From: Peptococcaceae bacterium CEB3
GTDB taxonomy: Bacteria; Bacillota; Desulfitobacteriia; Desulfitobacteriales; Desulfitobacteriaceae
Length of the DNA stretch: 64,000 nucleotides
Assembly: GCA_001029295.1 (NCBI GenBank)
Contig: LDXJ01000062.1
Location: 310,001 to 374,000, forward strand
Direction: 5' to 3'
A program made the position numbers and the translations under genes. Positions 36,568-61,880 of this stretch are shown piece by piece; within the stretch, counting starts at the first letter, position 1; each line of letters begins with the position of its first letter. The notes beneath the pieces were generated by a model, which saw nothing but the letters and a program-made list of their open reading frames with translations, did no database searches and was not told where the DNA came from.

Positions 36568-37605
36568 ATGCATATTCCGGACGGATACTTAAGTCCGCAA
36601 ACAGACGCGCTGATGGGGATTGTGAGCGCCTCTGTCTTAGGTATTGCGGCTAAGAAGACCTCTAAAACACTGAGTGCCAAGAACATTCCCCTACTGTCTG
36701 TGGGCGCGGCCTTTTGTTTTACACTGATGATGTTCAATGTTCCCATTCCCGATGGGACGACAGCACACGCGGTGGGTGGCTCATTGCTGGCTATTCTGTT
36801 CGGTCCATGGACAGCGGCCATTGGCGTGTCTATTGCCTTGGTGATCCAGGCGATCTTTTTCGGGGACGGGGGTATTTTGGCCTTAGGGGCAAACATATTT
36901 AACATGGCCATTGTGCTGCCGTTCCTGAGTTACGCCATTTACCGTTTAATCGCCGGTAAGAGTGTGATCTCATCAAAACGCCGTTTAGTGGGGGCTGCCA
37001 TCGGCGGCTATATCGGCCTGTGCGTCGCGGCTGTTTCTGCCGGAACAGAATTTGGCTTGCAACCGCTTCTTTTCCATACCGCCAACGGGACTCCGCTTTA
37101 CAGCCCTTATGGCTTGAATGTGGCTGTACCGGCCATGCTTTTTGCGCACGCGACGATAGCTGGGCCGGTGGAGGCTGCGGTTACCACAATGGTTCTTGCC
37201 TATCTGCAACGTTCGAACCCGGCCTTGTTGGAACTGAGACATAATCGGGAAAGTGCGGGCCCGGCGTTGCGGCTGAGGAAGTATGTCATCGGTTTGCTGG
37301 TCATTGCCGTGTTTACTCCCTTGGGACTTCTAGCTTCGGGAACTGCCTGGGGAGAAGGGAGTTTGGAAGACATAAAGTCCACATTAGGATTTGTTCCCGC
37401 TGGGATGCAAAAATTCGGTGATTTATGGCGACACGCGGTGCTCAAAGGCTATGGTATTGCGGGATATGACCATACGTTCTGGCAGCAAGCACTGGGTTAC
37501 CTTTTGTCCGCCTTTGTGGGTTTGCTCCTGATCGGGGGGATTGCCTTGATTGTTCAGCATTTTGTCCGTAGGTCCGGACACAGGCAAGTAAGCGCAAACA
37601 AATGA
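36568..37605 (+). CDS. cbiM: Cobalt/nickel ECF transporter substrate component CbiM (with CbiN-like C-terminal part)
   Basis: Integral membrane S-component for Co2+ or Ni2+. 345 residues. The N-terminus MHIPDGYLSP supplies the metal-binding Met-His-Ile pattern; NVPIPDGTTAHAVGG, FGDGGILALGANIFNMA and GLQPL follow, in about six to seven helices. After residue ~240 comes a second two-helix unit (KYVIGLLVIAVFTPLGLLASGTAWGE and a last helix near the end), as in CbiMN/NikMN fusions. The partner CbiQ and CbiO genes are missing here; the next DNA is a rearranged B12-locus scar and the AT-rich island, so the operon may have been split. ATG follows GGTGAGGAGGGA. Confidence 0.92.
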   Translation: MHIPDGYLSPQTDALMGIVSASVLGIAAKKTSKTLSAKNIPLLSVGAAFCFTLMMFNVPIPDGTTAHAVGGSLLAILFGPWTAAIGVSIALVIQAIFFGDGGILALGANIFNMAIVLPFLSYAIYRLIAGKSVISSKRRLVGAAIGGYIGLCVAAVSAGTEFGLQPLLFHTANGTPLYSPYGLNVAVPAMLFAHATIAGPVEAAVTTMVLAYLQRSNPALLELRHNRESAGPALRLRKYVIGLLVIAVFTPLGLLASGTAWGEGSLEDIKSTLGFVPAGMQKFGDLWRHAVLKGYGIAGYDHTFWQQALGYLLSAFVGLLLIGGIALIVQHFVRRSGHRQVSANK

Positions 37606-37699
37606 GGATTGACAAGCCCAGTGCCGATGTGCTCAGCTGACAAAAGGCCAACTGGCTGCAAAAACCTACCTGTAATGTATACACCGGTAAAACGTGTCG
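37605..37699 (+). pseudogene. Left island scar: B12-operon promoter copy joined to a btuF fragment
   Basis: 37605-37640 repeats, with four mismatches in 36 bases, the promoter segment at 43318-43353 (TTGACAAGCCC...GTGCCGATGTGCT). From 37647 to 37699 it repeats, with two mismatches in 53 bases, the coding sequence at 44419-44471 inside the btuF-like gene (CCTGTAAT, TATACACCGGTAAAACGTG). The ~1.06 kb that lies between these in the intact locus is deleted. It overlaps the last base of cbiM. Confidence 0.85.
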
Positions 37700-37719
37700 G
37701 TCGATTTAAGGGCTAGGAA

Positions 37720-37747
37720 AGAGGACCGTCCCAGGGGACGGTCCTCT
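37720..37747 (+). terminator. Perfect 12-bp palindrome at the island's left edge
   Basis: AGAGGACCGTCC / GGACGGTCCTCT with loop CAGG, then TCTGGTTGTGG. Strong stem, poor T-run; it may be a terminator or a REP-like element. Confidence 0.5.
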
Positions 37748-37906
37748 TCTGGTTGTGGCATCGGAAATACAGGAATCCTAAAAAAGTATCTTCCATAACG
37801 GGTAACTCTGTACTATAATCTAGGTAGAACTTATATTCGATGAGGCGGTGAAATAGAAGCGAGGTCGCAGGAACAACAAGACGTGAGGAAGAGGAGGGAA
37901 TTGCAA

Positions 37907-38824
37907 ATGTTTGACTTTGTTTCACGGGAAAGTGTCAAGGAAAAGTTAGTTGAACAGGGGTATATCTCAAACAAAAGCATTGAGTATACGCTGTTCAATA
38001 CCGTCAAATTACAAACCCCTTTGCTCATTGAAGGTGCTCCGGGAGTTGGAAAAACGGAATTGGCCAAAGTGCTCTCGTCTGTTTTCGCTGCCAAACTCAT
38101 TAGGGTGCAATGTTTTGAAGGAATTGATTTTACAAAGGTGCTCTATGATTACAATTATTCCAAACAGTTACTTTATATCAACCTTTTAAAAAGCAACACA
38201 GAAAAATTAATTAGTGACAAAGAATTCAACACAGCTGTCCAGATCATCGGGGATAAGACGGATTTCTTTGGTGAGGATTTCTTGATTGAGCGCCCCATCC
38301 TGGAAGCTATTTCCCCCAAGAATCATATCCCAAAAGTGCTTTTATTTGATGAGATCGACAAGGCCGACATGGAGTTTGAAGCCTATCTGCTTGAAGTCCT
38401 ATCAGATTTTGCAATTACGATTCCTGAGTATGGAACGATTCAAGCAGCAGAAAGGCCACTGGTCATTCTAACATCAAATAGTACAAGAGAACTGAGCGAA
38501 GCATTGAAGAGACGCTGCACTTATTTATACATTGATTATCCCAGCATGGAAATAGAGGCAGAAATCATAAGGTCAAAGGTTTCCATTGAACTAGACTTTG
38601 CCCAAAGAATCGCTGAGATAGTTAATAACATAAGAGAACTTTCGCTAAAACAGAAGCCATCCATTGCGGAAGCGATAACTTGGGCCAAGTCACTTTTATT
38701 GATCATCAATAAAGACCAGTTTGACATGACTAATAAAGATGAAATCGATCTCACCCTGAATGTCTTGCTGAAAAACAAAAACGATATTATGAAGGTTCGG
38801 CAAAGTAATTACCTGGCAAGTTAG
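37907..38824 (+). CDS. MoxR-family AAA+ ATPase (CoxD-like)
   Basis: 305 residues. Walker A GAPGVGKT (43-50), Walker B VLLFDEID (Asp148-Glu149), sensor-1 VILTSNSTRELSEALKRRC with the arginine-finger region, and a C-terminal helical lid. MoxR ATPases act as chaperones or remodelers, usually with a VWA-domain partner encoded nearby, as here. ATG 37907 follows GAGGAGGG by 8 nt; an in-frame GTG 24 bp earlier is less likely. First gene of an AT-richer three-gene operon, 39 bp before the next start. Base and codon use (AAA, ATT, TTA) differ visibly from the GC-richer flanks. Confidence 0.9.
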   Translation: MFDFVSRESVKEKLVEQGYISNKSIEYTLFNTVKLQTPLLIEGAPGVGKTELAKVLSSVFAAKLIRVQCFEGIDFTKVLYDYNYSKQLLYINLLKSNTEKLISDKEFNTAVQIIGDKTDFFGEDFLIERPILEAISPKNHIPKVLLFDEIDKADMEFEAYLLEVLSDFAITIPEYGTIQAAERPLVILTSNSTRELSEALKRRCTYLYIDYPSMEIEAEIIRSKVSIELDFAQRIAEIVNNIRELSLKQKPSIAEAITWAKSLLLIINKDQFDMTNKDEIDLTLNVLLKNKNDIMKVRQSNYLAS

Positions 38825-38863
38825 TCTATGTTTGCAGAACATGCGCGAGGGGGAAGGGGTTTT

Positions 38864-40339
38864 ATGATCGCAAACGAACTTAAGTTACGCACTATTTTGT
38901 CCACTATTTTGGAGAAGGACCTGTACGACGAAAAGATTTATTCTTTCAGATTATCAGTCAAGGGAAAGCCTGTACTTTGCAATAAGGCAGCCGGAAAGTC
39001 TTACGGCATTTCGGGAATTATTAGTAGGATAAATCAAATTGTGAACATTGAGGATACCAGTGCTGAAGCCATATTAAGTGTATTGCCCAACAAGTTAAGC
39101 AAAAACATCACAGAACAACTCAAGCCTTATCTTTCAAACGTGGCAGCTTTTGAAAAAGATATTATTGTGACGATTTTCGACCAGAAACACCAAGAGATTC
39201 ATCATGGACTTGCTCTCTTCAACGATCACAATAAGGCGATGTTGGCAATACTTCGCGCCGGAATCAAGAATAACAGTCTGACCCGCCTGTTTGACAAAGA
39301 GGCTCGAAAAATTGTTAATGCCAACATAAAGAAAAGCTGCGATCATTCAGATTATGACCTTTCCGTAGACAATAAAAACATAAAAGTCAAGTGTCCGGAT
39401 TGTGAATTTCACTGTCTATTTGATGGAAACACATTGTTTAAAACCGATACTTCCATCCTCAACCAGATGGAAGCACTCGAAGAAGTAATTTTAGGCTATA
39501 CTGATTTCGGGAAAATAGAAGAATCGTTTCGCCGTTTTAACAATGCTTTTTTCCAAATTAAAAGCGAGTCGCTTTTAGAATTGTCAACTTTAAGAGGACG
39601 ATATGGCAGCTTTAGGGCGAAATCGATGGATGAACTTATTCGCAATTTTGAAAAAGACGCTTATCAATATGATTACAAAATAAAAACGCTTGAATTTGCA
39701 AATTTGCGGTTCGACATTAACGACGAAGCCATAGCCGATTCTCTTAAAAAGGGAATTAGACAATTGATTGCTTTACACGAAACACAATTGATAAGACTGA
39801 AGGCTGAAACAGATGCGTTATTAGCTAAAGAACCCATCAGAATTGTATTAATGGCGATTAAGGCGATTCCCAAGTACGGAAAGACAACCTATGCCGACTT
39901 ACTCAAGGGGGCCAAAAATAAAAAGATGGCAGAATATGAACTTGATAAATCGGAATACTACGGTTTGCTAAGTGGGTATAAGCGGCATGAAATTGAAAGC
40001 ATGATCGACTCATTAGAGGCTAACGATATGCTCAGAACCTATTATTCGCAAGGGGACAGACATAACCGATACCCGAAATTGCGGCTAACCGAACAGGCCA
40101 GCGGGGTATTCACCCAAAAAATTGCATTACCTATTCAGCCGGTTATCACGCAAGACGTACCGGATGATTTTAAAACATTACTTAATGAACTATACCGGTT
40201 TCCTAAAGAAGTCAAAGCGAAAGCCATCAAGACAGCGATAGAAAAAGGGATCATTCATGACGCTGATTTCCCTTTTATCTTCGAGTATACGTTAGAGAAG
40301 AGAGCATACTACCGGGATGTGTTAGATGAATTTTTTTAA
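38864..40339 (+). CDS. Unrecognised MoxR-associated protein with Cys cluster and RQC-like winged helix
   Basis: 491 residues. N-terminal ~150 residues show no family I recognise. A Cys cluster follows: Cys159, then KCPDCEFHC giving Cys177, Cys180 and Cys184, a likely zinc ribbon or knuckle. Helical middle (residues ~190-320). Residues ~322-415 (PIRIVLMAIKAIPKYGKTTY, ADLLKGAKNKKMAE, SEYYGLLSGYKRHEIESMID, YPKLRLTEQ) look like the RQC winged-helix domain of RecQ helicases, which binds duplex ends and junctions. No helicase motor is present. It lies between MoxR and VWA genes with good ribosome site GGGGGAAGGGG, so it is probably the adaptor or target of that pair. Confidence 0.72.
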   Translation: MIANELKLRTILSTILEKDLYDEKIYSFRLSVKGKPVLCNKAAGKSYGISGIISRINQIVNIEDTSAEAILSVLPNKLSKNITEQLKPYLSNVAAFEKDIIVTIFDQKHQEIHHGLALFNDHNKAMLAILRAGIKNNSLTRLFDKEARKIVNANIKKSCDHSDYDLSVDNKNIKVKCPDCEFHCLFDGNTLFKTDTSILNQMEALEEVILGYTDFGKIEESFRRFNNAFFQIKSESLLELSTLRGRYGSFRAKSMDELIRNFEKDAYQYDYKIKTLEFANLRFDINDEAIADSLKKGIRQLIALHETQLIRLKAETDALLAKEPIRIVLMAIKAIPKYGKTTYADLLKGAKNKKMAEYELDKSEYYGLLSGYKRHEIESMIDSLEANDMLRTYYSQGDRHNRYPKLRLTEQASGVFTQKIALPIQPVITQDVPDDFKTLLNELYRFPKEVKAKAIKTAIEKGIIHDADFPFIFEYTLEKRAYYRDVLDEFF

Positions 40340-40410
40340 GTATTTTTCTGTTAATGCCGGAAAAGTATTTACCTTTAATCAAGCTAAATACAACGATTCA
40401 AGAGGGAGCC

Positions 40411-40458
40411 ATGCAAAAGACGTTTAAAAAGATATTGGATCTTAGGAAGGCGGGCTAA
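40411..40458 (+). CDS. Possible 15-residue leader peptide ORF
   Basis: MQKTFKKILDLRKAG, preceded by GAGGGAG but only 2 nt away, ending 2 bp before the VWA start. It may couple translation to the VWA gene or be chance. Its last codons contain the VWA ribosome site (AGGAAGG). Confidence 0.25.
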   Translation: MQKTFKKILDLRKAG

Positions 40459-40460
40459 AG

Positions 40461-41954
40461 ATGGATGAATTGATGGCCGAATTCATTGAGGTTAAGTGTA
40501 AAAAGAATCAAATAACCGAGAACTTTCTATGGGTCATTTTGGACTTGGTCAATTTTTTGCGAGAACATGAATTCACCATTACAACTCTCTCTGTTGTTCA
40601 ATTCTTTGAGCTTTGCCCTGATTATGACATTTTCGACTTTGAAGAAATGGTCATTGCGATGCGGTCGCTATTTGCCAAATCGAGACTGGAATACACAAAT
40701 TTTGAAGACTATTTAGCCGAGTTTTTTCAGAATAAGGCTTCTTATAGCATAAGAGAATTATCGGATAAACGCAGTGCTTTTCTTCAAAAACAGCATGAGC
40801 AATTAAGCAGAGAGCTATCTGACTACGGTGATCATACCCTCAGTATTCAAGCAGGAGGAACCCATGAAATAGAGGAAGACGAATTAATCGAAAACATTCT
40901 TGCCCAGTCAGGAACCACTTCCGTTTTAAAGCCCTTTTTTGAGTCTTTACAAAACAGCATGATTCCAATACGTCTTATCGTTCCGAATGAAAAAACCGTT
41001 AAAGACGCTCTGAATAAAGCAATGTTCTATAATCTGACGCATAATAATGATGAGTTGTTTAATAAGCGATGTATAGAACTAGCAGCTTTTTTGGCAAAAG
41101 CCAAAACCAAAGTTAAGTCCGATATGTCCCGGAAGATAAAGCAAATCAAGGAAATCGAAAAGCTCATGAGCACTACCCATCGAAAAGAGTTCATCGAAGG
41201 CCAGAACGCGGTAAGATCCTATCAGGAACTGATCCAGCGAGACATAAAATCGTTAAATGAAACAGAATACGAACTTCTGTTGGAATATATAAAAATGAAT
41301 GCTTCTAAATTCAGACAAAAAATCTCAAGAAGCATGAAAGTATCCAAACATAGGCAATTGGATTTTAAACGAACGATTCAAAAAGGGGTCCGGACATTCG
41401 GGGATCCGATAGAATTATGTTTTAAGAAGCCTATTGTTAAAAAAACGCGCCTTGTGTGTATCATGGACGTATCCGGATCGGTCAAGAAATACGCCAAAAT
41501 CCTTTTGCAATTCATCTACGAGCTGTCCAGTGTCTTTAAGGGCGGCGTTAAGTCTTATGTGTTTGTTAACGATATTATCGAAGCAACGGAGTGCATGACG
41601 AAGTATTCACTGAGCGAGGGAATATCATTAGCAATGGCGCTCAATAGTAAAGGCTACTCTGACTACAACAATGCTTTCAAACATTTCTGCGAGGAATATA
41701 TTGGCGTTGTCGATAAAAACACCATTGTTATCATACTCGGCGATGCCAGAAACAACAAAAATGCAGCAGGTATTCAGCACTTAGCTCAAATCAAGGAAAG
41801 AGCCAAACATATAGTCTGGCTTAATCCCGAAAATATGGAAAAGTGGGATACGGGAGATAGCATTATCAAGCAATACCGAAAGCTCGTCAATTCCACGTAT
41901 AAGACAACGAGTTTTTTGGATATTGTCGATTTCCTGAACGATATGGTAGTTTAG
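40461..41954 (+). CDS. CoxE-like VWA-domain protein
   Basis: 497 residues. Helical N-terminal two thirds with charged coiled-coil stretches (residues ~200-300), then a von Willebrand A domain with MIDAS motif DVSGS (Asp336, Ser338, Ser340), GYSDYNNAF near 398-406 where the MIDAS Thr region is Ser/Asp, and LGDARNN (Asp428). VWA proteins of this type work with MoxR ATPases. The AGGAAGG site is 10 nt before ATG 40461. Followed directly by the HIT/amidotransferase scar. Confidence 0.88.
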   Translation: MDELMAEFIEVKCKKNQITENFLWVILDLVNFLREHEFTITTLSVVQFFELCPDYDIFDFEEMVIAMRSLFAKSRLEYTNFEDYLAEFFQNKASYSIRELSDKRSAFLQKQHEQLSRELSDYGDHTLSIQAGGTHEIEEDELIENILAQSGTTSVLKPFFESLQNSMIPIRLIVPNEKTVKDALNKAMFYNLTHNNDELFNKRCIELAAFLAKAKTKVKSDMSRKIKQIKEIEKLMSTTHRKEFIEGQNAVRSYQELIQRDIKSLNETEYELLLEYIKMNASKFRQKISRSMKVSKHRQLDFKRTIQKGVRTFGDPIELCFKKPIVKKTRLVCIMDVSGSVKKYAKILLQFIYELSSVFKGGVKSYVFVNDIIEATECMTKYSLSEGISLAMALNSKGYSDYNNAFKHFCEEYIGVVDKNTIVIILGDARNNKNAAGIQHLAQIKERAKHIVWLNPENMEKWDTGDSIIKQYRKLVNSTYKTTSFLDIVDFLNDMVV

Positions 41955-41984
41955 CCTTTTCGGCCTAGAGAGGAGATGTCGAGA

Positions 41985-42205
41985 TGCCTTGGGATTGTGT
42001 CTTTTGCTCTCAACCCCAAACGGAAGTCCTGGCCGAAAATAAGCTGGTTTGGGCACTTTTGGACAGATACCCATTGAACCATGGATTCTCATGAGAAACA
42101 TACTTTTCTCATAGGAATCCAGTTTCACCCAGAAATGATGTGGCACACCGGCCCGGGCATGTTTAAGCTAGCTCGCTACTTTGTCCACTACTTGACGAGG
42201 CTGTG
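41985..42205 (+). pseudogene. Permuted scar of HIT and amidotransferase genes
   Basis: 41985-42090 is about nine-tenths identical to the 5' end of the intact HIT gene at 59512 (MPxDCxFCSQPQTEVLAENK), and it breaks just after the codons for LNHG. From about 42108 to 42200 the sequence matches the 3' end of the intact amidotransferase gene (IQFHPEMMWH...MFKLARYFVHYL). In the intact locus the order is the reverse. This is the junction left when a tandem duplicate of the pair loses its middle. No working frame remains. Confidence 0.85.
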
Positions 42206-42285
42206 AGGGGTACAACGTCGCGGCGGGGTTATGGTAATTCAATGTAGCCTATAGTATAATATTGACAGGGAGGCAGGTGAGACAC

Positions 42286-43257
42286 TTGTCCCAAAAGGAT
42301 GCAGGTTCAGAACGGGTGAAATTGGACGAAATACTAAAATCCTTGTTCACAGTGTCCGGCAAAGTACTGATCAATATGTTAAACAGCTTATTCAAAGAGA
42401 ACTATGCTATAGAAGCAACCGAGGTAAGCTTTGGTAGCAATGAATTCGTTGATGATGAGTACAATATACTAAGAGGAGATTTCTTCCTTAAACTTGGTGA
42501 CGCTGATAAATCTGGTCATTATCACATAGAAATACAGACACTCAACGATGACAGTATGGTTATCAGAATGTTAGAGTACGGAATTAGTAAAGCTAAGGAA
42601 ATAGCCAAAGGCCCTGGAGACCAAGAGGAAACGGCATTCTACATCCCTAAACAATTGGTAATCTTCATAGAACAAAACCCAAGCATTAAAGATGAACTAA
42701 GACTGAGACTGATCTTCCCAGATGGACAGGAAGTAAAATACCGGGTACCGGTCATGAAATACTGGGAATATGGAAAAGAAGAGATCTTAGAACAAAGACT
42801 CTACCCACTGTTGCCCTTACAGGTATTTAAGTTACGCTATCAGATGGAGAAGATAAAACTAAGAAAGACACATACAGAACAAGAACTGTGGGAATTGATC
42901 GAGAAAGCTAAACAGGTAGTGGAAGAAATGGCTAATGAAGCAGCTAGACTGTGTAAAGATGGGGAAATAGACGGAGGAGACCTGCACACAATGCTGTTAG
43001 CGAATGAAGAACTCTTCCGATACTTAAACAGCCGATATTGTAATGATGAAAAACTAAATGAGGAGGTGCTAAGCATGACTAGAACGTTGTATGATCCGAT
43101 AGTAGCAGAAAAAGCTAAGCAAGAAGGAAAGCGAGAAGGGAAACTAGAAGCAGCCCGAAGCGCATTGTTAAAAGGGTTCTCGTTAGAAGACATTGCTGAG
43201 ATAACCGGCCTACCCCTGGAAACTTTGCAGAAGTTGAAAGCGGAACTAACAAACTAG
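42286..43257 (+). CDS. Rpn/PD-(D/E)XK-family transposase-type nuclease
   Basis: 323 residues. N-terminal nuclease core typical of the PDDEXK_2 'Rpn family recombination-promoting nuclease/putative transposase': LDEILKSLF, ILRGDFFLKLGD, YHIEIQTLNDDSMVIRMLEY (the ExQ and metal-site region), IPKQLVIFIEQNP. The C-terminal tail has the usual GKREGKLEAARSALLKGFSL and LPLETLQKLKAE. The family nicks DNA and promotes RecA-independent recombination; often a multi-copy mobile gene. Start TTG 42286 after AGGTGAG; TATAAT at 42255-42260. Placed inside the island next to a recombination scar. Confidence 0.85.
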   Translation: MSQKDAGSERVKLDEILKSLFTVSGKVLINMLNSLFKENYAIEATEVSFGSNEFVDDEYNILRGDFFLKLGDADKSGHYHIEIQTLNDDSMVIRMLEYGISKAKEIAKGPGDQEETAFYIPKQLVIFIEQNPSIKDELRLRLIFPDGQEVKYRVPVMKYWEYGKEEILEQRLYPLLPLQVFKLRYQMEKIKLRKTHTEQELWELIEKAKQVVEEMANEAARLCKDGEIDGGDLHTMLLANEELFRYLNSRYCNDEKLNEEVLSMTRTLYDPIVAEKAKQEGKREGKLEAARSALLKGFSLEDIAEITGLPLETLQKLKAELTN

Positions 43258-43321
43258 GGCAGTGCCAGGATTTCCCCCCCCACACGACGGGAACCATTCT
43301 GCAAAGCTTCCTGTTTAGGGA

Positions 43322-43351
43322 TTGACAAGCCCGGTGCCGATGTGCTAGGCT
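43322..43351 (+). promoter_or_regulatory. Promoter of the cobalamin-riboswitch operon
   Basis: TTGACA (43322-43327), 18-bp spacer, TAGGCT (43346-43351). A degraded copy lies in the left scar at 37605-37640. Confidence 0.55.
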
Positions 43352-43382
43352 GAAAGTGTGAAAACTCAATATATGCGGCGCG

Positions 43383-43545
43383 AGTATACTTTCTTTAGAG
43401 AAAGTATTGAAAAGGGAAGTCAGTACGAATCTGACGCGGTCCCGCCACTGTGATAGTGAGCGGCCTTACATAGTGTCACTGGGTAAAACCGGGAAGACGT
43501 AAGGCGGCGATGAACTTAAGCCAGGAGACCTGCTCGCTCCGGAAC
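43383..43545 (+). promoter_or_regulatory. Cobalamin (AdoCbl) riboswitch
   Basis: The conserved core is readable: AAAAGGGAAGTC, GCGGTCCCGCCACTGTGA, GTCACTGGG, CCGGGAAGACG, GGCGATGAACTTAAG and the B12 box AAGCCAGGAGACCTGC (43518-43533). Expected to shut off the downstream importer when cobalamin is bound, probably through the terminator at 43623-43657. TGCTCGC (43531) can pair with GCGAGCA (43614), a candidate expression-platform helix. Confidence 0.95.
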
Positions 43546-43622
43546 AGCACAGATACCTACGGAAGATAGGGGAGGTGTTGCTTTTGCCGGGTAACCATCG
43601 ATCCGGCTAGGCGAGCAAGGCG

Positions 43623-43657
43623 AAACCCTTTACAGGTATTCTGTAGAGGGTTTTTTT
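43623..43657 (+). terminator. Riboswitch-controlled terminator
   Basis: AAACCCTTTACAG / CTGTAGAGGGTTT stem, 5-nt loop, then TTTTTTT; between the riboswitch and the first gene. Confidence 0.88.
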
Positions 43658-43687
43658 CTGTGTCGAGGCGGATAACTCTACGTACAA

Positions 43688-43745
43688 ACGAATCGCGTGC
43701 ATATGCACGAAACGAATCGCGTGCGTATGCACGAAACGAATCATC
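43688..43745 (+). repeat. 24-bp tandem palindromic repeat in the B12 leader
   Basis: Units at 43688 and 43712 and a truncated one at 43736. Each holds ACGAATCGCGTGC then ATATGCACGAA or GTATGCACGAA, so CGTGCATATGCACG is a perfect palindrome in the first unit. It lies after the riboswitch terminator and before the first ribosome site. Confidence 0.75.
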
Positions 43746-43795
43746 TAGGTCCGGTTTAATTGCTCCGTTTATCTCAAGAGGAGGGGTAGATAGTG

Positions 43796-44038
43796 ATGAG
43801 TCCCGAAAATGACAAAGGCACCACGGTGGAAGAGCGTAAACAGACCCTACTGGAGGCGCGCGAGGAGATCCTGATGAAGTATAAAACCGAAAAGGAGCAG
43901 CGGCTTCAGTGGCTGGTGCGTTTCATGGATATCGAAGACGAGCTGGAAGAATTGGCCCGACTGGAAAACCGGCGCACGATCCTGGGAAATCTCACGTCGG
44001 CAGGAAACTCCAGGCGGTGGAAAGCTAAGTCCTATTAA
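43796..44038 (+). CDS. Small coiled-coil protein of unknown function
   Basis: 80 residues, highly charged and helical (EERKQTLLEAREEILMKYK, FMDIEDELEELARLENRR). No signal or membrane segment. ATG 43796 follows GAGGAGGGG. It is the first gene under the cobalamin riboswitch, so a role in B12 uptake is possible, but no family is recognised. Its last codons start a 16-17 bp direct repeat (GCTAAGTCCTATTAA, twice). Confidence 0.6.
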   Translation: MSPENDKGTTVEERKQTLLEAREEILMKYKTEKEQRLQWLVRFMDIEDELEELARLENRRTILGNLTSAGNSRRWKAKSY

Positions 44039-44200
44039 AGAGCTAAGTCCTATTAACTGAGACGCAAGGTGTTGGAATGGCAAAAGAAGACCGGGAAGTG
44101 ATTCAGGGCAAGAGTGCTGATTTGAGGTAAGGTACAAATCCGGTGGAAATCTCAAGGCGCGATTTTTATGAGGTGGAAATTTTGGAGAGGGGTTTTGAAG

Positions 44201-45325
44201 ATGCTCGGATACCGAAGGAAACTGTCTTTAGTTCTAACCGTAATACTTACGCTGGTTTTACTCGCAGGCTGCGGCACAGTGCAGAAAGCGGCAGCTACGG
44301 GTGCCGTAAAGCTGGAATATGCCAAAGGTTTTAAGATCGCCAATGTCGGCGGCGGCTGCCAAGAGGTGACGGACGGTGAAGGGCGGACCTTGCTTTTGGT
44401 GCCGCGGGGCCAACAAACGCCAACTGGCTACAAAAACCTACCTGTAATTTATACACCGGTAAAACGTGTCGTGGCAGTTTCTACGACGGAGGCCGCCTTC
44501 CTGAGGCCTTTGGGGGAGTTGGGCAGCATTATTGGCGTTACTATTGATAAAAACCAGTGGTATATCGACCCGGTGAAAGAGGGAATGGCGAGCGGCAAGA
44601 TCCAAATGGTAGGTGGCGGCGCCGGGATGGGACCGTTGGCTTACGGCAAGATCGTCGCTTTGAGACCGGACCTGGTCTTTATGAGCACCGGGACATCGGG
44701 AGATGTTCAGACCTTAAAAAAATTGGAAGGACTCAAGATTCCGGTGGCCGTTGACAACAGCTGGCTGGAAAGCGATCCCTTGGGCAGATTGGAGTGGATC
44801 AAGTTTATAGCTGCTTTTTACGGGAAGGAACAACAGGCGGATCAATTCTTCACTCAGGCGGTGCAAAAAGTCTCCGGTATTAAAGAGAAAGTGGCCGGGG
44901 ACAAAGACAAACCCAAAGTCTTATGGGGGATGATCTACCAAGGTAAGGCCTATGTGCCGGGGGGAGATTCTTACGCAGCCAAAATGATCGCGCTGGCCGG
45001 GGGTGATTATCTCTTTAAAAACCTTAAAGGGACAGGCAGTGTGCCGATTACGTTGGAAGAGTATTATGCCAAAGGCAAAGAAGCCAATGTCTATATTTCT
45101 GACACGATGCCCAATTACGGAGTCACTTCCATCGCCGATATTAGCAAGCAGTCGCCGGTCCTGGCGGAACTTCCCACGATCAAGCAGGGAAAAGTGTGGT
45201 GTTATCAACCCTGGTATTTCCAGTCGCTGGATAAGACGGATGAGATCATTGGGGATCTGGCGAAGATTTTCCATCCTCATCTCTTTGCCGGAAGGCAATT
45301 GCAAGAGCTTATGAAGCTGAAATGA
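44201..45325 (+). CDS. btuF: ABC-transporter substrate-binding lipoprotein, BtuF/FepB-like
   Basis: Binds a corrinoid (inferred from the riboswitch) outside the membrane. 374 residues; signal peptide with lipobox LLAGC. The periplasmic-binding-protein type-III fold is suggested by VKRVVAVSTTEAAFLRPLGEL, ALRPDLVFMSTG, and WGMIYQGKAYVPGGDSYAAKMIALAGG. ATG 44201 follows GGAGAGGGG by 8 nt and is preferred over ATG 44168. A 53-bp piece of it (44419-44471) is duplicated at the left end of the island, and its 3' end is partly repeated 71 bp downstream. Confidence 0.87.
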   Translation: MLGYRRKLSLVLTVILTLVLLAGCGTVQKAAATGAVKLEYAKGFKIANVGGGCQEVTDGEGRTLLLVPRGQQTPTGYKNLPVIYTPVKRVVAVSTTEAAFLRPLGELGSIIGVTIDKNQWYIDPVKEGMASGKIQMVGGGAGMGPLAYGKIVALRPDLVFMSTGTSGDVQTLKKLEGLKIPVAVDNSWLESDPLGRLEWIKFIAAFYGKEQQADQFFTQAVQKVSGIKEKVAGDKDKPKVLWGMIYQGKAYVPGGDSYAAKMIALAGGDYLFKNLKGTGSVPITLEEYYAKGKEANVYISDTMPNYGVTSIADISKQSPVLAELPTIKQGKVWCYQPWYFQSLDKTDEIIGDLAKIFHPHLFAGRQLQELMKLK

Positions 45326-45390
45326 CCGTGATTACGGTTTAAAAGAGGGCTAACTTTGCCAGAAGGCAACTGCAAGAGTTTATGAAACTC
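45284..45390 (+). repeat. Partial duplication of the btuF 3' end
   Basis: TTTGCCGGAAGGCAATTGCA (45284) recurs 71 bp on as TTTGCCAGAAGGCAACTGCA (45355), similar for 36 bp. The first copy contains the btuF C-terminus; the second makes a short in-frame lead-in before the permease. Confidence 0.8.
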
Positions 45391-45465
45391 TTGCGAGCTA
45401 GAGGTGAGTTCTGCTTTCACCGAGACAGAAAGGGAAATCGTCCGGGAAGAAAGCGGACGTTTTAC

Positions 45466-46521
45466 ATGGTGACAGAGGTGATTCCTAAAAGTTTTTCCCG
45501 TTTTTCGAGCCCCATCGGTTGTAAGCCATTTTATTTATTGGCGCTGTTGAGTATTTTACTGGTTTTGACTCTCATTTTGAGCCTGACGCTCGGTTCGGTG
45601 GCAATTCCTCTCAAAGATTTAAGCCAGGTTTTATTGGGCCAGGGGAGTCATACGGTGGACAAAACGGTGATCTTGGACATCCGTTTGCCGCGGGCTTTGG
45701 CGGCAGCCTTTGGGGGAGCGGCCCTGGCGGTCAGCGGACTGCTCTTGCAGATTTTCTTTCGTAATCCCATTGTCGACCCTTATGTGTTGGGAGTTTCTTC
45801 CGGTGCTACATTGGTCGTCGCCCTGCTGATGCTGACAGGGTTCAGCCTGGGCATGGGGTCAGTCTCACCGTTCTTGGTCACGCTGGCCGCTCTTATCGGT
45901 GCCTTGGGAGTCGTAGTCCTGGTCATGGCGATTGCCAATCGGGTTAAAAGTGTGGTGACTTTACTGGTGATCGGCCTGATGATCGGCTATCTCTGCAGTG
46001 CCGTCGTCAATATCCTTATGACTTTTGCCGAAAAGGAAAATCTCCACAATTTTATCCTTTGGACTTTGGGCAGCTTTTCCGGTTTCGACTGGAGGGAAGT
46101 GGAAATCTTGGCGCCGGTGGGCGGGGTTTTGTTGGCTGCAGCCTACCTCCTCAGTAAACCGCTCAATGCCCTGTTGTTAGGAGAGGATTATGCGCAAAGC
46201 ATGGGCGTGAAGATCAAGAAGCTGCGACGGGGCACCGTTTTGATTTCCAGCGCCTTGACCGCTTTGGTGACGGCTTTCGCCGGGCCTGTGGCTTTTATCG
46301 GTCTGGCCAGCCCGCATTTAGCGCGCTTGATCCTTGGTACTTCCGATAACAAGATCCTTATTCCGGCCACCATTCTCCTGGGGGCCACGGTTACGACTTT
46401 GTGTGATCTGTTGGCCCGGATCAGTTTTTCTCCGGTGGAGCTGCCCATTAGTGCTATCACCTCTTTGTTGGGTGCGCCTATTGTCATCAGCCTGCTCATG
46501 AAAAGGAGGACGAGCTTATGA
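45466..46521 (+). CDS. btuC: ABC-transporter permease, BtuC/FecCD family
   Basis: 351 residues, about ten hydrophobic segments. Family signatures: DIRLPRALAAAFGGAALAVS, LLLQIFFRNPIVDPYVLGVS, LGSFSGFDW, and GPVAFIGLASPHLARLI (coupling helix to the ATPase). Start taken at ATG 45466; the upstream in-frame codons come from the duplicated btuF tail, and no strong ribosome site is visible for either. It overlaps the ATPase start by four bases (ATGA). Confidence 0.9.
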   Translation: MVTEVIPKSFSRFSSPIGCKPFYLLALLSILLVLTLILSLTLGSVAIPLKDLSQVLLGQGSHTVDKTVILDIRLPRALAAAFGGAALAVSGLLLQIFFRNPIVDPYVLGVSSGATLVVALLMLTGFSLGMGSVSPFLVTLAALIGALGVVVLVMAIANRVKSVVTLLVIGLMIGYLCSAVVNILMTFAEKENLHNFILWTLGSFSGFDWREVEILAPVGGVLLAAAYLLSKPLNALLLGEDYAQSMGVKIKKLRRGTVLISSALTALVTAFAGPVAFIGLASPHLARLILGTSDNKILIPATILLGATVTTLCDLLARISFSPVELPISAITSLLGAPIVISLLMKRRTSL

Positions 46522-47765
46522 GTATCGTTCAAACCAAAGAATTGGCCGTGGGCTATGAAGGCCGGACGGTTGTCGGCCAGATCAATCTGGAGGCTTTAAA
46601 GGGTCAGTTTATCTGTCTCCTCGGTCCCAACGGTTCCGGCAAATCCACGATCATCCGTACTCTGTCCGGGTTACTGAGGCCGCTGGGAGGCTCCGTGTTT
46701 CTGAAAGGTGAGCATCTTTACACGATTCAGCCTCAGGATTTAGCCAAGACGATGGCGGTGGTCTTGACCGAACGCCTCTCCCCCGGTTTGATCAAGGTCT
46801 TTGATCTAGTAGCGATGGGCAGGTATCCCTATACGGGTTTTTTTGGCCGCCTGACCGGGAAAGACGCGGGGAAGGTTTGGGAGGCTCTGAGCTTAGTCGG
46901 TGCCGGTAAGTTGGCCGGCAGATATTTCAATGAACTGAGTGACGGTGAGAAACAAAAAGTGCTCATGGCCCGGGCCTTAGTGCAGGAACCGGAAGTGCTG
47001 ATCTTGGATGAACCGACGTCTCATCTTGACCTGAAACATCGCCTGGAGGTCATGGCTATTTTGCGTCGGCTCACGCAAAAGAAAGGCATCACAGTCATCC
47101 TTTCTTTGCATGAAGTGGATATGGCTCTCAAAAGTTGCGAACTCGTCATTCTGGTCAAGAACGGGAAAATACTTGCCTATGGACCGCCGGAAGAAATCTT
47201 GGGTGATGAAAGGGTTGCTGAACTCTACGATATTGATTGTGCCAATTTCAGCAATTGCCTGGGTGGTATTGAACTGAGAAACGGTGGAGGTGCCGGGGTC
47301 TTTGTTTTGGCCGGGGGCGGCAGCGGTGCCTTGGTTTACCGGCTGCTCAATAAACAGGGTTTCAGCCTCAGTACCGGAGTCATCCCTGAGAACGATATAG
47401 ATTACCATGTGGGCCAAGCGTTGGGCGCAACCGTCATCAGTGAGAAGCCTTTCGAGGAGATCAGCAAATCCTCGCTCAACAGAGCCGTCTTCGCCAGTAC
47501 CCAAGCGGCTTACATCCTTGATGCCGGCTTTCCGGTAGGCACACAGAACAAGCGCAACCTGGATCTTGTCAAGCAGGTCTTAGCCCAAGGCCGGACGATC
47601 TACAGCCTGCGGAATCCCAAGGAAATTCGCCTCCTATTTGGAGAGGGTAAAGGCCAATGGGTCTTTTGTCCGACAACAGGTGCGCTGTTGTCGCAACTGA
47701 AAATAGAAGAGGGCCAGCGTCAGGGAAAAAATGCTTCAACTTCCGCAGCTGTCGTTGTGGGTTAA
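46518..47765 (+). CDS. btuD: ABC-transporter ATPase, BtuD/FecE-like, with extra C-terminal domain
   Basis: 415 residues. Residues 1 to ~250 are a complete importer ATPase: Walker A LLGPNGSGKST, signature NELSDGEKQKVLMARAL, Walker B VLILDEPTSHLDL, switch His in LSLHEVDMA. After ~255 comes a ~150-residue domain with a Gly-rich Rossmann-like start (GVFVLAGGGSGALVYRLLN) and DIDYHVGQALGATVISEKPF, seen in some archaeal and clostridial corrinoid/iron ABC ATPases but absent from ordinary BtuD. Its role is unknown. Ends inside a 64-bp direct repeat. Confidence 0.88.
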   Translation: MSIVQTKELAVGYEGRTVVGQINLEALKGQFICLLGPNGSGKSTIIRTLSGLLRPLGGSVFLKGEHLYTIQPQDLAKTMAVVLTERLSPGLIKVFDLVAMGRYPYTGFFGRLTGKDAGKVWEALSLVGAGKLAGRYFNELSDGEKQKVLMARALVQEPEVLILDEPTSHLDLKHRLEVMAILRRLTQKKGITVILSLHEVDMALKSCELVILVKNGKILAYGPPEEILGDERVAELYDIDCANFSNCLGGIELRNGGGAGVFVLAGGGSGALVYRLLNKQGFSLSTGVIPENDIDYHVGQALGATVISEKPFEEISKSSLNRAVFASTQAAYILDAGFPVGTQNKRNLDLVKQVLAQGRTIYSLRNPKEIRLLFGEGKGQWVFCPTTGALLSQLKIEEGQRQGKNASTSAAVVVG

Positions 47766-47878
47766 GACAGGTACTCCGGCTTCCGGTCATGACCCACGTG
47801 ACTGTGATTGACAGCCCCTGCAGAGTTAAGACATCTACTCCGGCTTCTGGTCTCTGAGCCGTGGCCTCTGATTTACAG
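47761..47878 (+). repeat. 64-bp direct repeat across the btuD stop
   Basis: GTTAAGACAGGTACTCCGGC (47761) recurs as GTTAAGACATCTACTCCGGC (47825), with similarity continuing to GATTGACAG/GATTTACAG. The first copy contains the btuD stop codon. Confidence 0.75.
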
Positions 47879-50452: not shown

Positions 50453-51643
50453 ATGGGAACATCAAAGCCTTTATTTACAATCTTGAAAGGGGGTCACCTA
50501 TTCGCTCCGGCTGACGTGGGGATTGGGGATGTGGTCGTGGCGGCCGGGGTTATTGCCAATTTTGCTGACGAGGTCACTCCCGCACCGGCATATGGCGACG
50601 TAGAAGTAATTGATGTGAGAGGAAAGTATGTCGTGCCAGGCTTCCTTGATCAACATGTCCACTTGTTGGGAGGTGGCGGAGAAGGGGGCTATGCCTCCCG
50701 CACGCCGGAAGTCGTCTTAAGTCACTTGACCAGGGCCGGGATCACTACGGTTGTAGGTTGTTTGGGTACGGATGCGACCACCAGGCACCTCTCTTCACTT
50801 TTGGCCAAAGCTCGAGCCCTAGAGACAGAGGGGATAACAGCGTACATTTATACGGGAGCGTACGAGGTGCCGGTGCCGACCATTACGGACAATGTGCGCA
50901 ATGACCTCATTCTCATTGACAAGGTGGTTGGTTGCGGAGAGGTAGCCATATCCGATCACCGTTCCGCCCAGCCCAGCAAGGAAGACATCCGTAAGCTGGC
51001 GGCTCAAAGCCGGGTCGGGGGGATTTTGAGCGGCAAGGCCGGTGTTTTACATTTGCATGTGGGCGGCGGCCCCCAAGGACTCAAAGTGCTGTTCGAAATT
51101 TTGGACGAAGGGGAGATTCCGGTCAGCCAATTCACGCCAACACATATAAACCGCAGCGAGAACCTCCTCGACCAAGGTATTGAGTTTGTCCGCCGCGGTG
51201 GGATGCTCGATTTTACCACCAGCACGAATCCGGACGAGAAGCGTGTCTCAGGCATGAAGGCGGCCAAGGCTGTGCGCCACTGCCTTGAGCAGGGAGCGGA
51301 TATTGAACACCTTACCTTGAGCTCTGACGGCAACGGTAGCTTGCCGCGTTTCAACGAGCGCGGCGAGATGATCGGCTTGGCCGTGGGAGAGCCCCATTCG
51401 CTGTTACGGGAGTTTCGGGATTTGGTCTATGAGGAAGGACTGGAACTTTCGGAGAGTTTAAAGGTAGTTACTCAGAACCCGGCTCGCTCACTTAAGCTCT
51501 GGCCGAGGAAGGGGGCTTTGCAGGTTGGAGCAGATGCGGACATCCTGGTCTTGGATGAAGAACTGAACCCGGAGTATGTCTTTGCTCGCGGACGCTGCCT
51601 GGTACGACGGGGAAAGCCCATAGTGAAAGGTACCTTTGAGTAG
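50453..51643 (+). CDS. iadA: Isoaspartyl dipeptidase
   Basis: Zinc amidohydrolase that splits beta-aspartyl dipeptides left by protein damage. 396 residues. Metal and substrate residues visible: DQHVHLLGGGGEGG (HxH), GAYEVPVPTIT, HLHVGGGPQG (His), FTPTHINRS (His), and LSSDGNGSLP (Asp). ATG 50453 is far from the GGGGGTG site; an in-frame CTG at 50441 is 5 nt from it and might be the true start. It precedes an aminotransferase and a peptide importer, consistent with catabolism of imported isopeptides. Confidence 0.92.
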   Translation: MGTSKPLFTILKGGHLFAPADVGIGDVVVAAGVIANFADEVTPAPAYGDVEVIDVRGKYVVPGFLDQHVHLLGGGGEGGYASRTPEVVLSHLTRAGITTVVGCLGTDATTRHLSSLLAKARALETEGITAYIYTGAYEVPVPTITDNVRNDLILIDKVVGCGEVAISDHRSAQPSKEDIRKLAAQSRVGGILSGKAGVLHLHVGGGPQGLKVLFEILDEGEIPVSQFTPTHINRSENLLDQGIEFVRRGGMLDFTTSTNPDEKRVSGMKAAKAVRHCLEQGADIEHLTLSSDGNGSLPRFNERGEMIGLAVGEPHSLLREFRDLVYEEGLELSESLKVVTQNPARSLKLWPRKGALQVGADADILVLDEELNPEYVFARGRCLVRRGKPIVKGTFE

Positions 51644-55128: not shown

Positions 55129-56073
55129 ATGCCAGATTTGCTCAAGAGTCCGGCGGCTGCCGGTTTAACCGTGACTGAACCTCCTGGGCCGCCGCTGCCA
55201 GCCCCCGATGCTATTTTGACTGGCGGGACGGTTTCCTCTCCCTGGTCCGAATTCTGGCGGAAGTTTCGAAGACAAAAGCTGGCTATGGTGGCGGGAGCAT
55301 TCATCGTCCTTCTCTTTATTATCGCCATCTTTGGCCCGGTAATTGCTCCCTATCGGATGGATCAGCCGGATTATAACAATATGTTGGCTGGACCTTCTCT
55401 CCAGCATCTCTGCGGAACGGATGAATTCGGACGGGACATCTTCAGCCGCATCCTTGTCGGCACGCGTATTTCCCTGTGGGTGGGGCTTTCTTCTGTGCTG
55501 GTCAGCGCCTTTTTTGGTACCATTCTAGGGCTAATTAGCGGCTTTTACGGTAAGTGGCTGGATGCGTTCATCATGCGGTTCTCCGATGTCCTCTTGGCTT
55601 TCCCGGGGATTTTGCTGGCCATCGGTATTATCGCCATTCTAGGTCCAGGACTGGGGAATGTCATCATTGCTGTCGCTATCTTTGGCATTCCGATTTTTGC
55701 CCGCATCGTTCGCAGCAGCGCACTCACTTTGAAAAACACGGTATATGTCGAAGCTGCCCGTTCAGTTGGCGCTCAGAATAAACGGCTCATCTGGAAGCAC
55801 ATCTTTCCGGGAGCGGTTTCTACGGTTATAGTTTATTTTACTATGCGTATTGGAACGGCTATTCTAACCGCTTCCAGTTTAAGTTTTCTTGGGCTTGGGG
55901 CTCAGCCACCCACTCCGGAATGGGGAGCCATGCTCAGCAGCGGCAGAAACTACCTAGACCAAGCTCCCCATGTGGCAGTATTTCCCGGGCTTGCCATTTT
56001 TCTAACAGTCTTGGCATTTAATCTTTTTGGCGACGGTCTGAGGGATGCGTTGGATCCGAAGATCAAGAGCTAG
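55129..56073 (+). CDS. Peptide ABC-transporter permease (DppC/GsiD type)
   Basis: 314 residues. Pro-rich cytoplasmic N-terminus (~1-45), first helix [19 protein letters not shown], then [19 protein letters not shown] (DppC hallmark) and the coupling loop [23 protein letters not shown] 55129 follows GGGAGGAAG; 12 bp after the first permease. Confidence 0.93.
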
Positions 56074-58695: not shown

Positions 58696-59439
58696 ATGAA
58701 ACCGTTGATAGGAGTTACGTCTACGAAGATCTTGCTCAATTCTCCTTATTATGGAGCCTATGTGGCAGAGGGGTATTTCACCGGTATTGCGCAAGCGGGC
58801 GGCATTCCGCTCATCATTCCCCTAGTCGAAGAGGCAGACGTTTGGCGGGATATTATCGAGCATGTGGACGGTTTGATCTTCACTGGGGGTTTGGATATTC
58901 ATCCCCAATTTTACGGTGAGGGTCTTCACCCCCAGATCGGGGAGTTATATCCGCTGCGTGATCGTCAGGAAATAGCGGCGGCGCGTTACGCTTTAGAAAT
59001 AGATAAGCCGGTGGTCGGAATTTGCCGGGGTTGCCAGATTCTAAACGTGGCCAAAGGCGGGAGCCTTTATCAAGATATTAACAGCCAGTGCCAAGGAACT
59101 TATCTCCATACTCAAACGGCTCCGCGTGATGAAGGCAGCCACTACGTCGAGATCGGCGAAGACAGCCGTCTTTATGAAGCCTTTGGAGTACGGAGCCTGT
59201 TCACCAACAGTTTTCATCATCAGGCTATCAAAGAACTGGCTGCGGGCTTTCGCAAAGTTGCGCAGGCCAAAGATGGAGTTATTGAAGGGTTCGAAAGCAT
59301 GGAGCACACCTTTGTCATGGGTATTCAGTTTCACCCGGAAATGATGTGGCACTCCCATACAGAGATGTTTAGACTGGCCCGATACTTTGTGGACTATTGC
59401 GGTAAACGGCAGACCGGAACCAGTCCAGCCCGGAAATAA
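58696..59439 (+). CDS. Gamma-glutamyl-gamma-aminobutyrate hydrolase-like class-I amidotransferase
   Basis: 247 residues from MKPLIGVTSTKILLNSPYYG. Peptidase C26 / PuuD-like fold: FTGGLDIHPQFYGE, nucleophile Cys in GICRGCQILNVAKGG, and His-Glu in MGIQFHPEMMWH. Such enzymes cut gamma-glutamyl bonds. The start is uncertain: ATG 58696 fits the family but has no ribosome site. A GTG at 58573 has GGGGGAGG upstream but would add 41 Lys/Arg/Glu-rich residues encoded by the repeat region. A C-terminal fragment of this gene is found in the island scar at 42108. Confidence 0.85.
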   Translation: MKPLIGVTSTKILLNSPYYGAYVAEGYFTGIAQAGGIPLIIPLVEEADVWRDIIEHVDGLIFTGGLDIHPQFYGEGLHPQIGELYPLRDRQEIAAARYALEIDKPVVGICRGCQILNVAKGGSLYQDINSQCQGTYLHTQTAPRDEGSHYVEIGEDSRLYEAFGVRSLFTNSFHHQAIKELAAGFRKVAQAKDGVIEGFESMEHTFVMGIQFHPEMMWHSHTEMFRLARYFVDYCGKRQTGTSPARK

Positions 59440-59511: not shown

Positions 59512-59919
59512 ATGCCTTCGGATTGTATCTTTTGTTCTCAACCCCAAACGGAAGTCCTGGCCGAAAATAAGCTGGCTCAGGCATTTTTGGACAGATACCC
59601 ATTGAACCATGGGCATACCCTCATCGTACCGAAACGGCACTTTGCCAGCCTGTTTGACGCTACGGATGAAGAAATGTTTGGTATTCTCGAGCTTCTGCAT
59701 GAAGTAAAGAAAAAGTTGGATCAACGTTTTGCCCCGGACGGGTATAATGTCGGGGTCAACGTGGGTGAAGCCGCCGGTCAGACTGTCTTCCACCTGCACG
59801 TCCACGTTATTCCGCGCTATTTAGGGGACGTGCCCGATCCCAGGGGTGGCATTCGCAGGATCAAAAAGAGCTTAGTGCCATGGGCCGGCGAAGGGGAAGA
59901 GGAAACGAGTGGGGTTTGA
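59512..59919 (+). CDS. HIT-family nucleotide hydrolase/transferase
   Basis: 135 residues. CIFC zinc-type pair near the N-terminus, NHGHTLIVPKRHFASL, and the histidine triad HLHVHVIPR at 94-102, the active site for hydrolysis of adenosine 5'-phosphoramidates or similar. ATG 59512 follows AAGGGAGATG. The 5' third is duplicated in the island at 41985. A terminator follows, ending the region that starts at the sigma-54 promoter, though readthrough across the repeats at 58.2-58.7 kb is not certain. Confidence 0.92.
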   Translation: MPSDCIFCSQPQTEVLAENKLAQAFLDRYPLNHGHTLIVPKRHFASLFDATDEEMFGILELLHEVKKKLDQRFAPDGYNVGVNVGEAAGQTVFHLHVHVIPRYLGDVPDPRGGIRRIKKSLVPWAGEGEEETSGV

Positions 59920-61028: not shown

Positions 61029-61085
61029 CCACATGCTCCTTGCTTTGGCCGGCTAAAGCAAGGGGGAAGTTCAGTGAGAGAAAAC

Positions 61086-61673
61086 CTAAATCTCCAGAGG
61101 AAACACTTCATTCAAGTCCATGGTCAGATCTGGAAAGATGCCGACTACCAGTGAGTCTGTTCCAGCGTAGATTTCCGGCCTACCGTATCTACCCTCAGGG
61201 CTAAGGCGAAAGACACTGATGGTTTTCTGGTCTGGATAGACTATCCAATATTCGCGTACGCCGACCCTCTCATAGAGGTTAAACTTGTCCTTGAGGTCTT
61301 TCTGAAATGTTGATGGGGACACGATTTCGACGACGAGGTCAGGGCTTCCCTTGCAGCCCAGATCATCCAGTTTAGTTCTATCACAGATCACTGCGATATC
61401 AGGTTGGACCACGGTGGAAGTCTGGTTATCGCTTCCTTGCGATTGGGGCAGGCGCACATCAAAAGGTGCATGGTAAACTTCACACGGTTTACCCGAAAGA
61501 TAATTGTTGAAAAGTGTAAGCAGCTGGCGGGAGATGAGTTGATGCAAACGTGTCGGGGCTGGGGTCATGTTGTAGGCTAATCCGTCGATGAGTTCCCAGC
61601 GTTCTTCTTCAGGCCATGTCAGATATTCCTGATACGTAAATCTTTGTTCCGTACGTTCCGCGGGTTTACTCAT
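61086..61673 (-). CDS. Uma2-family (DUF820) restriction-like nuclease
   Basis: 195 residues. Typical order: FTYQEYLTWPEEERWELIDG, MTPAPTRLHQLISRQL, PDIAVICDRTKLD, SPDLVVEIVSPSTFQKDLKD with D...ExV...K metal site, YWIVYPDQKTISVF. PD-(D/E)XK fold; biological role unclear, often multi-copy and mobile. ATG 61673 follows GGAGGG by 7 nt. Convergent with the BASS gene; an 8-bp CTTGCTTT/AAAGCAAG hairpin lies between at 61039-61062. Confidence 0.88.
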   Translation of the reverse strand: MSKPAERTEQRFTYQEYLTWPEEERWELIDGLAYNMTPAPTRLHQLISRQLLTLFNNYLSGKPCEVYHAPFDVRLPQSQGSDNQTSTVVQPDIAVICDRTKLDDLGCKGSPDLVVEIVSPSTFQKDLKDKFNLYERVGVREYWIVYPDQKTISVFRLSPEGRYGRPEIYAGTDSLVVGIFPDLTMDLNEVFPLEI

Positions 61674-61737
61674 AAGAAAGCCCTCCATCTGCCAATAAAT
61701 CCCTGCTTACATGGTAACATATTGCCTGAATCAGTAC

Positions 61738-61780
61738 AAGCTTAACCCTTTCGTCGCCGGACGAAAGGGTTAAGCTTTTT
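61738..61780 (+). terminator. 18-bp perfect inverted repeat upstream of the Uma2 gene
   Basis: AAGCTTAACCCTTTCGTC / GACGAAAGGGTTAAGCTT with loop GCCG, then TTT. It is terminator-shaped on the plus strand but lies between divergent gene starts, so it may stop antisense readthrough or be a mobile-element trace. Confidence 0.55.
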
Positions 61781-61880
61781 CCGCTAATCAGAAAGTATAA
61801 CTTTCACGGTGAACAAGTGCAACATTGACATCATTGACGTCATTGACAAAACGGGTTCAGGAGTTTAAGATAAAGACGAT

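Follow-up and report, generated by a model that had tools for sequence, protein, structure and literature searches.

In bacterial genomes, close direct repeats arise from tandem duplication followed by later deletion. The locus that we describe here resembles such repeats in its direct orientation, its kilobase spacing and its pairing of a complete copy with a partly deleted one, but differs from them in having a foreign gene block between the copies and a riboswitch within the copied unit; literature searches on remnants of genes, on template switching and on repeats of this type returned nothing specific. The genes between the copies recall two other described systems. In the MoxR-VWA conflict systems, as in the island discussed below, a MoxR-type AAA protein and a VWA protein are encoded adjacent to each other with a third gene; the third component of the ternary systems is VMAP, iSTAND, FtsH or beta-propeller according to Kaur (2020; PMC7159879), in the main text of which the word RQC, the domain encoded by the gene that accompanies this pair in the island, is absent. 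In Escherichia coli, Rpn proteins (Rpn/YhgA) raise RecA-independent recombination, and the account of this work suggests their relevance to island assembly (Kingston 2017; PMC5350276). Here too there is an Rpn-family gene in an island and there are joints with little or no shared sequence, but the island protein, a putative nuclease, is only a borderline member of TIGR01784 and the association considered later is statistically weak.

The window, by which we mean the whole stretch of 64,000 nucleotides analyzed, belongs to the 64-contig draft genome (G000) of an acid-tolerant sulfate reducer, and the comparison at genus level covers one other species, whose locus (genome G001, on the single contig NZ_LR746496.1) we take to be that of Acididesulfobacillus acetoxydans. 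All genes and copied pieces of the window named below lie on the plus strand. The gene cbiM, for the substrate component of a cobalt transporter with a PDGLE domain (36568-37605; PF01891, E 3.6e-57, and PF13190), encodes a protein 93-94% identical to three G001 copies, and is directly followed by two short pieces of the B12 operon situated further downstream: a copy of the riboswitch-operon promoter at 37606-37640 and an internal piece of btuF (about codons 83-101) at 37643-37699. A repeat search of the window matches the first to 43319-43353 (35 nt, 3 mismatches, 91%, offset 5,713) and the second to 44415-44471 (57 nt, 3 mismatches, 95%, offset 6,772). Both pieces keep the orientation of their sources, only a few kilobases away, and are colinear with the intact copy except for an absent internal segment of 1,059 bp, the difference between the two offsets, which in the intact copy holds the whole cobalamin riboswitch aptamer identified with Rfam. 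An earlier note on this DNA had reported a promoter match of 36 bp with 4 mismatches, a btuF match of 53 bp with 2 mismatches and the loss of about 1.06 kb between them; these matches and this loss are real, the counts differing slightly by choice of ends. When the window is compared with itself by BLAST, the promoter piece has E = 3.7e-6 and the btuF piece E = 4.2e-18, and none of 500 dinucleotide-preserving shuffles of the 96-bp chimera, each compared to the window, reaches either of the observed scores (50.9 and 90.6 bits vs. 35.6 bits for the best shuffle), so that chance similarity is excluded as the source of the matches. Within its own genome, a 121-bp query matches only four places, namely its own position, both of its sources and a site on contig C61. 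The chimeric copy is absent from 40 related genomes, the best matches there being promoter or btuF pieces of 29-38 bp.

The intact operon starts with the right promoter (43319-43353), found by the repeat search, and continues with the aptamer (43365-43551; RF00174, 118.4 bits), a small ORF (43793-44038; 64% in G001 locus L056 and 49% in locus L065 of G003, a genome of another genus), the gene for a btuF-like binding protein from which the left piece derives (44168-45325; PF01497, 8.4e-31) and btuC- and btuD-like genes (45382-47765; PF01032, PF00005). Small partial duplications are seen also immediately behind btuF (36 bp, 89%; 45283-45389) and btuD (about 55 bp, 78%; 47761-47878). As the earlier note held, direct repeats of one locus (37606-37699 vs. 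43319-44471) bracket the island that stands between cbiM and btuFCD.

This island (37883-43257) consists of four genes, whose GC content of 38.6-40.9% (about 39%) against 52.3% for the whole window marks it as compositionally foreign. The first gene encodes a MoxR/dynein-type AAA ATPase (37883-38824; PF07728, 5.9e-13; GC 39%), with a MadB-like score of 249 bits that falls under the cut-off of 475; the second, an RQC-domain protein (38828-40339; PF09382, 4.8e-14; GC 39%); the third, a VWA_CoxE protein (40461-41954; PF05762, 2.5e-31), which none of 44 further family genomes matches at more than 30% identity; and the last, a putative recombination-promoting nuclease of the Rpn family (42262-43257), which scores 51.5 bits with TIGR01784 against a cut-off of 52.1, and 13 bits with PF04754 against 21. 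In Pfam the gene that would supply the third component matches only RQC, and so none of the third components described for the ternary MoxR-VWA systems (Kaur 2020, as cited above). PADLOC returned partial matches to the AAA domain but no whole system, the other island proteins remaining unmatched, and literature searches gave no paper that joins MoxR, VWA, RQC and conflict systems, nor one that joins MadB, MadC, ATPase and VWA. Plasmids gave no match to the RQC or the Rpn protein, and viral contigs no relative of the VWA or the Rpn protein. None of the four island genes reaches the cut-off of an integrase or transposase family (TIGR01784, which bears the name "recombination-promoting nuclease/putative transposase", falls just below), the window holds no tRNA and the only repeats flanking the island are the operon pieces. 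The block does not qualify as a mobile island that brings an integrase and leaves a target duplication, and we rejected an att-like site or transposon target duplication as the nature of the repeats, because these are operon pieces and there is no integrase. Between the VWA and Rpn genes lie two further scraps, one of the start of a HIT-family gene (41984-42084; 93% to 59512-59612, the HIT gene being at 59512-59919) and one of the end of a Peptidase_C26/GATase gene (42085-42206, ends read by eye; 42099-42190 is 76% identical to 59305-59396). These scraps abut in an order that is reversed with respect to their sources, found 17 kb away at 58.6-59.9 kb. On contig C64 of the same genome, another low-GC stretch (44.5%; L188:1183-8617) is bracketed by a 72-bp direct repeat (93%).

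The joints of the chimera share little sequence. Between the cbiM stop and the promoter copy (37602-37606), where the sister species has 366 bp, the motif TGAG is common to the window and both sides of that spacer, while the joint between promoter and btuF pieces shares at most 1-2 bases; both joints are illegitimate rather than products of long homology. The left promoter copy retains the -35 hexamer TTGACA and has TCAGCT at -10, where the right copy has TAGGCT (hexamers read by eye). Neither copy is listed by a consensus promoter scan, which found 13 promoters vs. 13.0 expected. A strong palindrome (37719-37748), detected as a self-complementary match and folding into a hairpin, follows between the scar and the island genes. 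The idea that the left promoter drives the island was rejected, since this promoter is absent from the scan (though so is the right copy) and has the strong hairpin downstream; a leftover riboswitch at the left copy was likewise rejected, as Rfam finds none there.

In the sister species the order at L056 is uninterrupted: cbiM, 366 bp, promoter and riboswitch, small ORF, btuF, btuC and btuD. Since the unit is unbroken in this one other species of the genus compared, the low-GC island of the window splits an ancestral cbiM-btuFCD unit, in agreement with the separation proposed by the earlier note and with its prediction that an uninterrupted cbiM-riboswitch-btuF order should be found in related genomes. 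Of the two observations that would have spoken against the note, the chimera in an island-free relative and cbiM and btuF nowhere adjacent, neither was made in the genomes compared. Such an order is not general in the family. Among 14 cbiM loci of relatives (L055 to L068), the riboswitch adjoins cbiM in three, and btuFCD lies behind in one of these; at L065, for instance, cbiM is followed by the riboswitch and then by the small ORF. The 366-bp spacer was considered and rejected as a mobile insert, because it is found only in its two G001 copies and as a weak 32-bp match in G000. These copies, L056 and L057, lie about 42 kb apart and carry cbiM, spacer, promoter and riboswitch in duplicate before different genes, a 401-bp query covering the spacer being 100% identical in both. 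The flanks of L056 have no counterpart among seven other riboswitch loci of G000. In a Desulfitobacteriaceae MAG, two tandem cobalamin riboswitches precede btuF (L115:9361-9863).

The age of the copies can be judged against this species pair. Of 92 positions compared, 6 distinguish the left copy from the right, whereas the two species differ at 17-29% of the four-fold sites of cbiM, btuF and btuD; the duplication is thus younger than the species split. Four of the six differences are derived on the left, one on the right and one is unpolarised. All three in the btuF piece are derived on the left, where the copy therefore seems to be drifting; the promoter piece, with one difference derived on each side and one unpolarised, does not by itself indicate drift.

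In evolutionary terms, these observations raise a question: How did the start of the B12 operon come to lie, in pieces, beside cbiM and on the far side of a foreign gene block? The explanation that we consider likely is that the operon start, comprising promoter, riboswitch, small ORF and the beginning of btuF, was present in two direct copies, of which one has shrunk by internal deletion to the 95-bp chimera. Ancestrally, the promoter and btuFCD would have come behind cbiM; a direct duplication in this lineage, spanning no fewer than 1,153 bp (43319-44471), would then have left one copy beside cbiM and an intact one before btuFCD. The former would afterwards have lost 1,059 bp including the riboswitch; it now seems to be drifting, and its promoter has probably lost function. 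The AAA/RQC/VWA block and the Rpn gene now stand between the copies. That the left copy was once complete, and the order in which duplication, island gain and deletion followed each other, we infer; no genome with a complete left copy or an island-free intermediate was found among those compared. We prefer to see in the left copy what is left of the operon start in its first position next to cbiM, and to place the new junction on the upstream side of the right copy. Duplication finds support in the same module being duplicated in G001 (L056, L057) and in the tandem riboswitches of the family MAG. A further indication comes from the scrap on contig C61 (L005:9484-9847, minus strand), composed of a D-aminoacylase piece (78% to an intact G001 gene), a cbiM tail with promoter and a riboswitch end, next to a gene read by eye as groEL. 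It shows the same zero-distance joint of cbiM and promoter as the window, which suggests that this adjacency existed as such.

Scars of this class are ordinary in these genomes, as dispersed direct pairs occur in control stretches too. Within 60 stretches of 20 kb (20 each from G000, G001 and another family member, G020), pairs of at least 30 bp with at least 80% identity and at least 1 kb apart occur in direct orientation in 12 stretches (3, 4 and 5, respectively), amounting to 15 direct vs. 3 inverted pairs; without the 30-bp limit, G000 and G001 list 11 direct and 2 inverted pairs. At least two of the control cases (L199 in G000 and L226 in G020) have, like the locus described here, colinear pieces with an unequal gap in the two copies. 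A comparable scar is present in G001 itself, at the ortholog of the window's left flank (L055; BcrAD gene and cbiM at 89-91%), which is island-free. Directly after cbiM (L055:8394-8588) come a 120-bp piece matching window 50531-50643 and, abutting it, a 75-bp piece matching 55207-55278, followed by sequence matching window 61082-61781 at 92%. G001's own related gene cluster matches these pieces worse than the window does (the first at 69% over 87 bp, the second not at all), and hence about 23 kb was lost at L055, two tiny pieces being kept in order. The earlier note had taken the chimera as a sign that the island entered, or was trapped, by duplication at the B12 operon. Repeats do flank a foreign island, and duplication as the cause of its entry is possible; the link between the two is not established, as similar repeats occur away from islands, and that the chimera marks the island's entry does not follow, given the two-piece scar of the island-free L055, the scrap pair inside the island with sources 17 kb distant and the C61 scrap beside groEL.

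An unlikely but coherent version of this link is that the island was captured in the joining of sister chromosomes broken at 44471 and 43318, possibly promoted by Rpn, which would make the 1.15-kb duplication and the insertion a single event of end joining or template switching. It would account for repeats at both ends of the island and for a HIT scrap of similar identity (93%) inside it, Ku is present in both species, making end joining available, and Rpn proteins raise RecA-independent recombination in E. coli (Kingston 2017, as cited above). Yet the scraps are not all of one age, since that of the GATase gene has an identity of only 76%, and similar repeats are found without islands. The Rpn gene offers a lead of its own. 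Relatives of its protein at 85-86% occur in G001 (L172) and in G011, of another genus (L173), the two being 93% identical to each other over 1,119 bp. In G011 (L173:984-2704) the Rpn gene follows an ABC-transporter gene (read by eye), a 98-bp piece of which (90%) lies displaced on the other side in direct orientation, but L172 has no bracketing repeat. Counting, under a single criterion, the Rpn loci bracketed by direct repeats gives 3 of 11 vs. 4-7% (about 5.5%) of random 1-kb slots (P about 0.02), which falls to 2 of 10 (P about 0.10) without the window in which the pattern was discovered. In this count, L174 and L175 of 13 loci were omitted, their match beginning within 10 bases of the contig start, and L177 was kept even if its contig ends at the gene and it could not have been bracketed; gene ends for L176 to L183 were set by hand, since in most of them the match was confined to the C-terminal part. 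L178, afterwards read as an ORF, has bracketing copies separated by 10 kb and several genes. The enrichment is weak, a lead and not a result. A long shot is that Rpn-family nuclease genes spread by a RecA-independent joining in which hundreds of bases of the target locus are duplicated; every fresh insertion would at first stand between long direct copies of host sequence, and one of these would later collapse into a scrap. Were this so, and we would put little weight on it, the chimera and the ABC-transporter scrap of G011 would be two footprints of such joining.

Alternatively, the left piece could have arisen by templated insertion where a break was repaired, its 35- and 57-bp parts never having belonged to a complete copy and having been copied, or captured, into a repair joint next to cbiM. 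These parts meet with no more than 1-2 bases in common, and at the sister locus L055 two short pieces (120 and 75 bp) likewise adjoin each other. We nonetheless regard this as quite improbable: In the three two-piece scars (window edge, HIT/GATase and L055) all six pieces keep the source orientation and four of the six the source order, as expected of duplication plus deletion, direct pairs outnumber inverted ones in the controls, and in the C61 scrap the junction between cbiM and the promoter has the same position. Chance or an artefact of assembly deserves hardly any credence even for a draft of 64 contigs, given the E-values and shuffles reported above, the point changes between the copies, which make an assembler misjoin unlikely, and the position of the locus inside a contig of 382,784 bp.

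A collapsed duplicate of the operon start with foreign genes between its copies is consequently the well-supported reading of this locus. It means that a foreign block came to stand between the cobalt transporter gene and the partner operon under riboswitch control, and that what looks like a boundary repeat of the island is no att-like site but a duplicate in decay. The link with Rpn, if true, would give a widespread and poorly understood nuclease family a recognisable genomic footprint.
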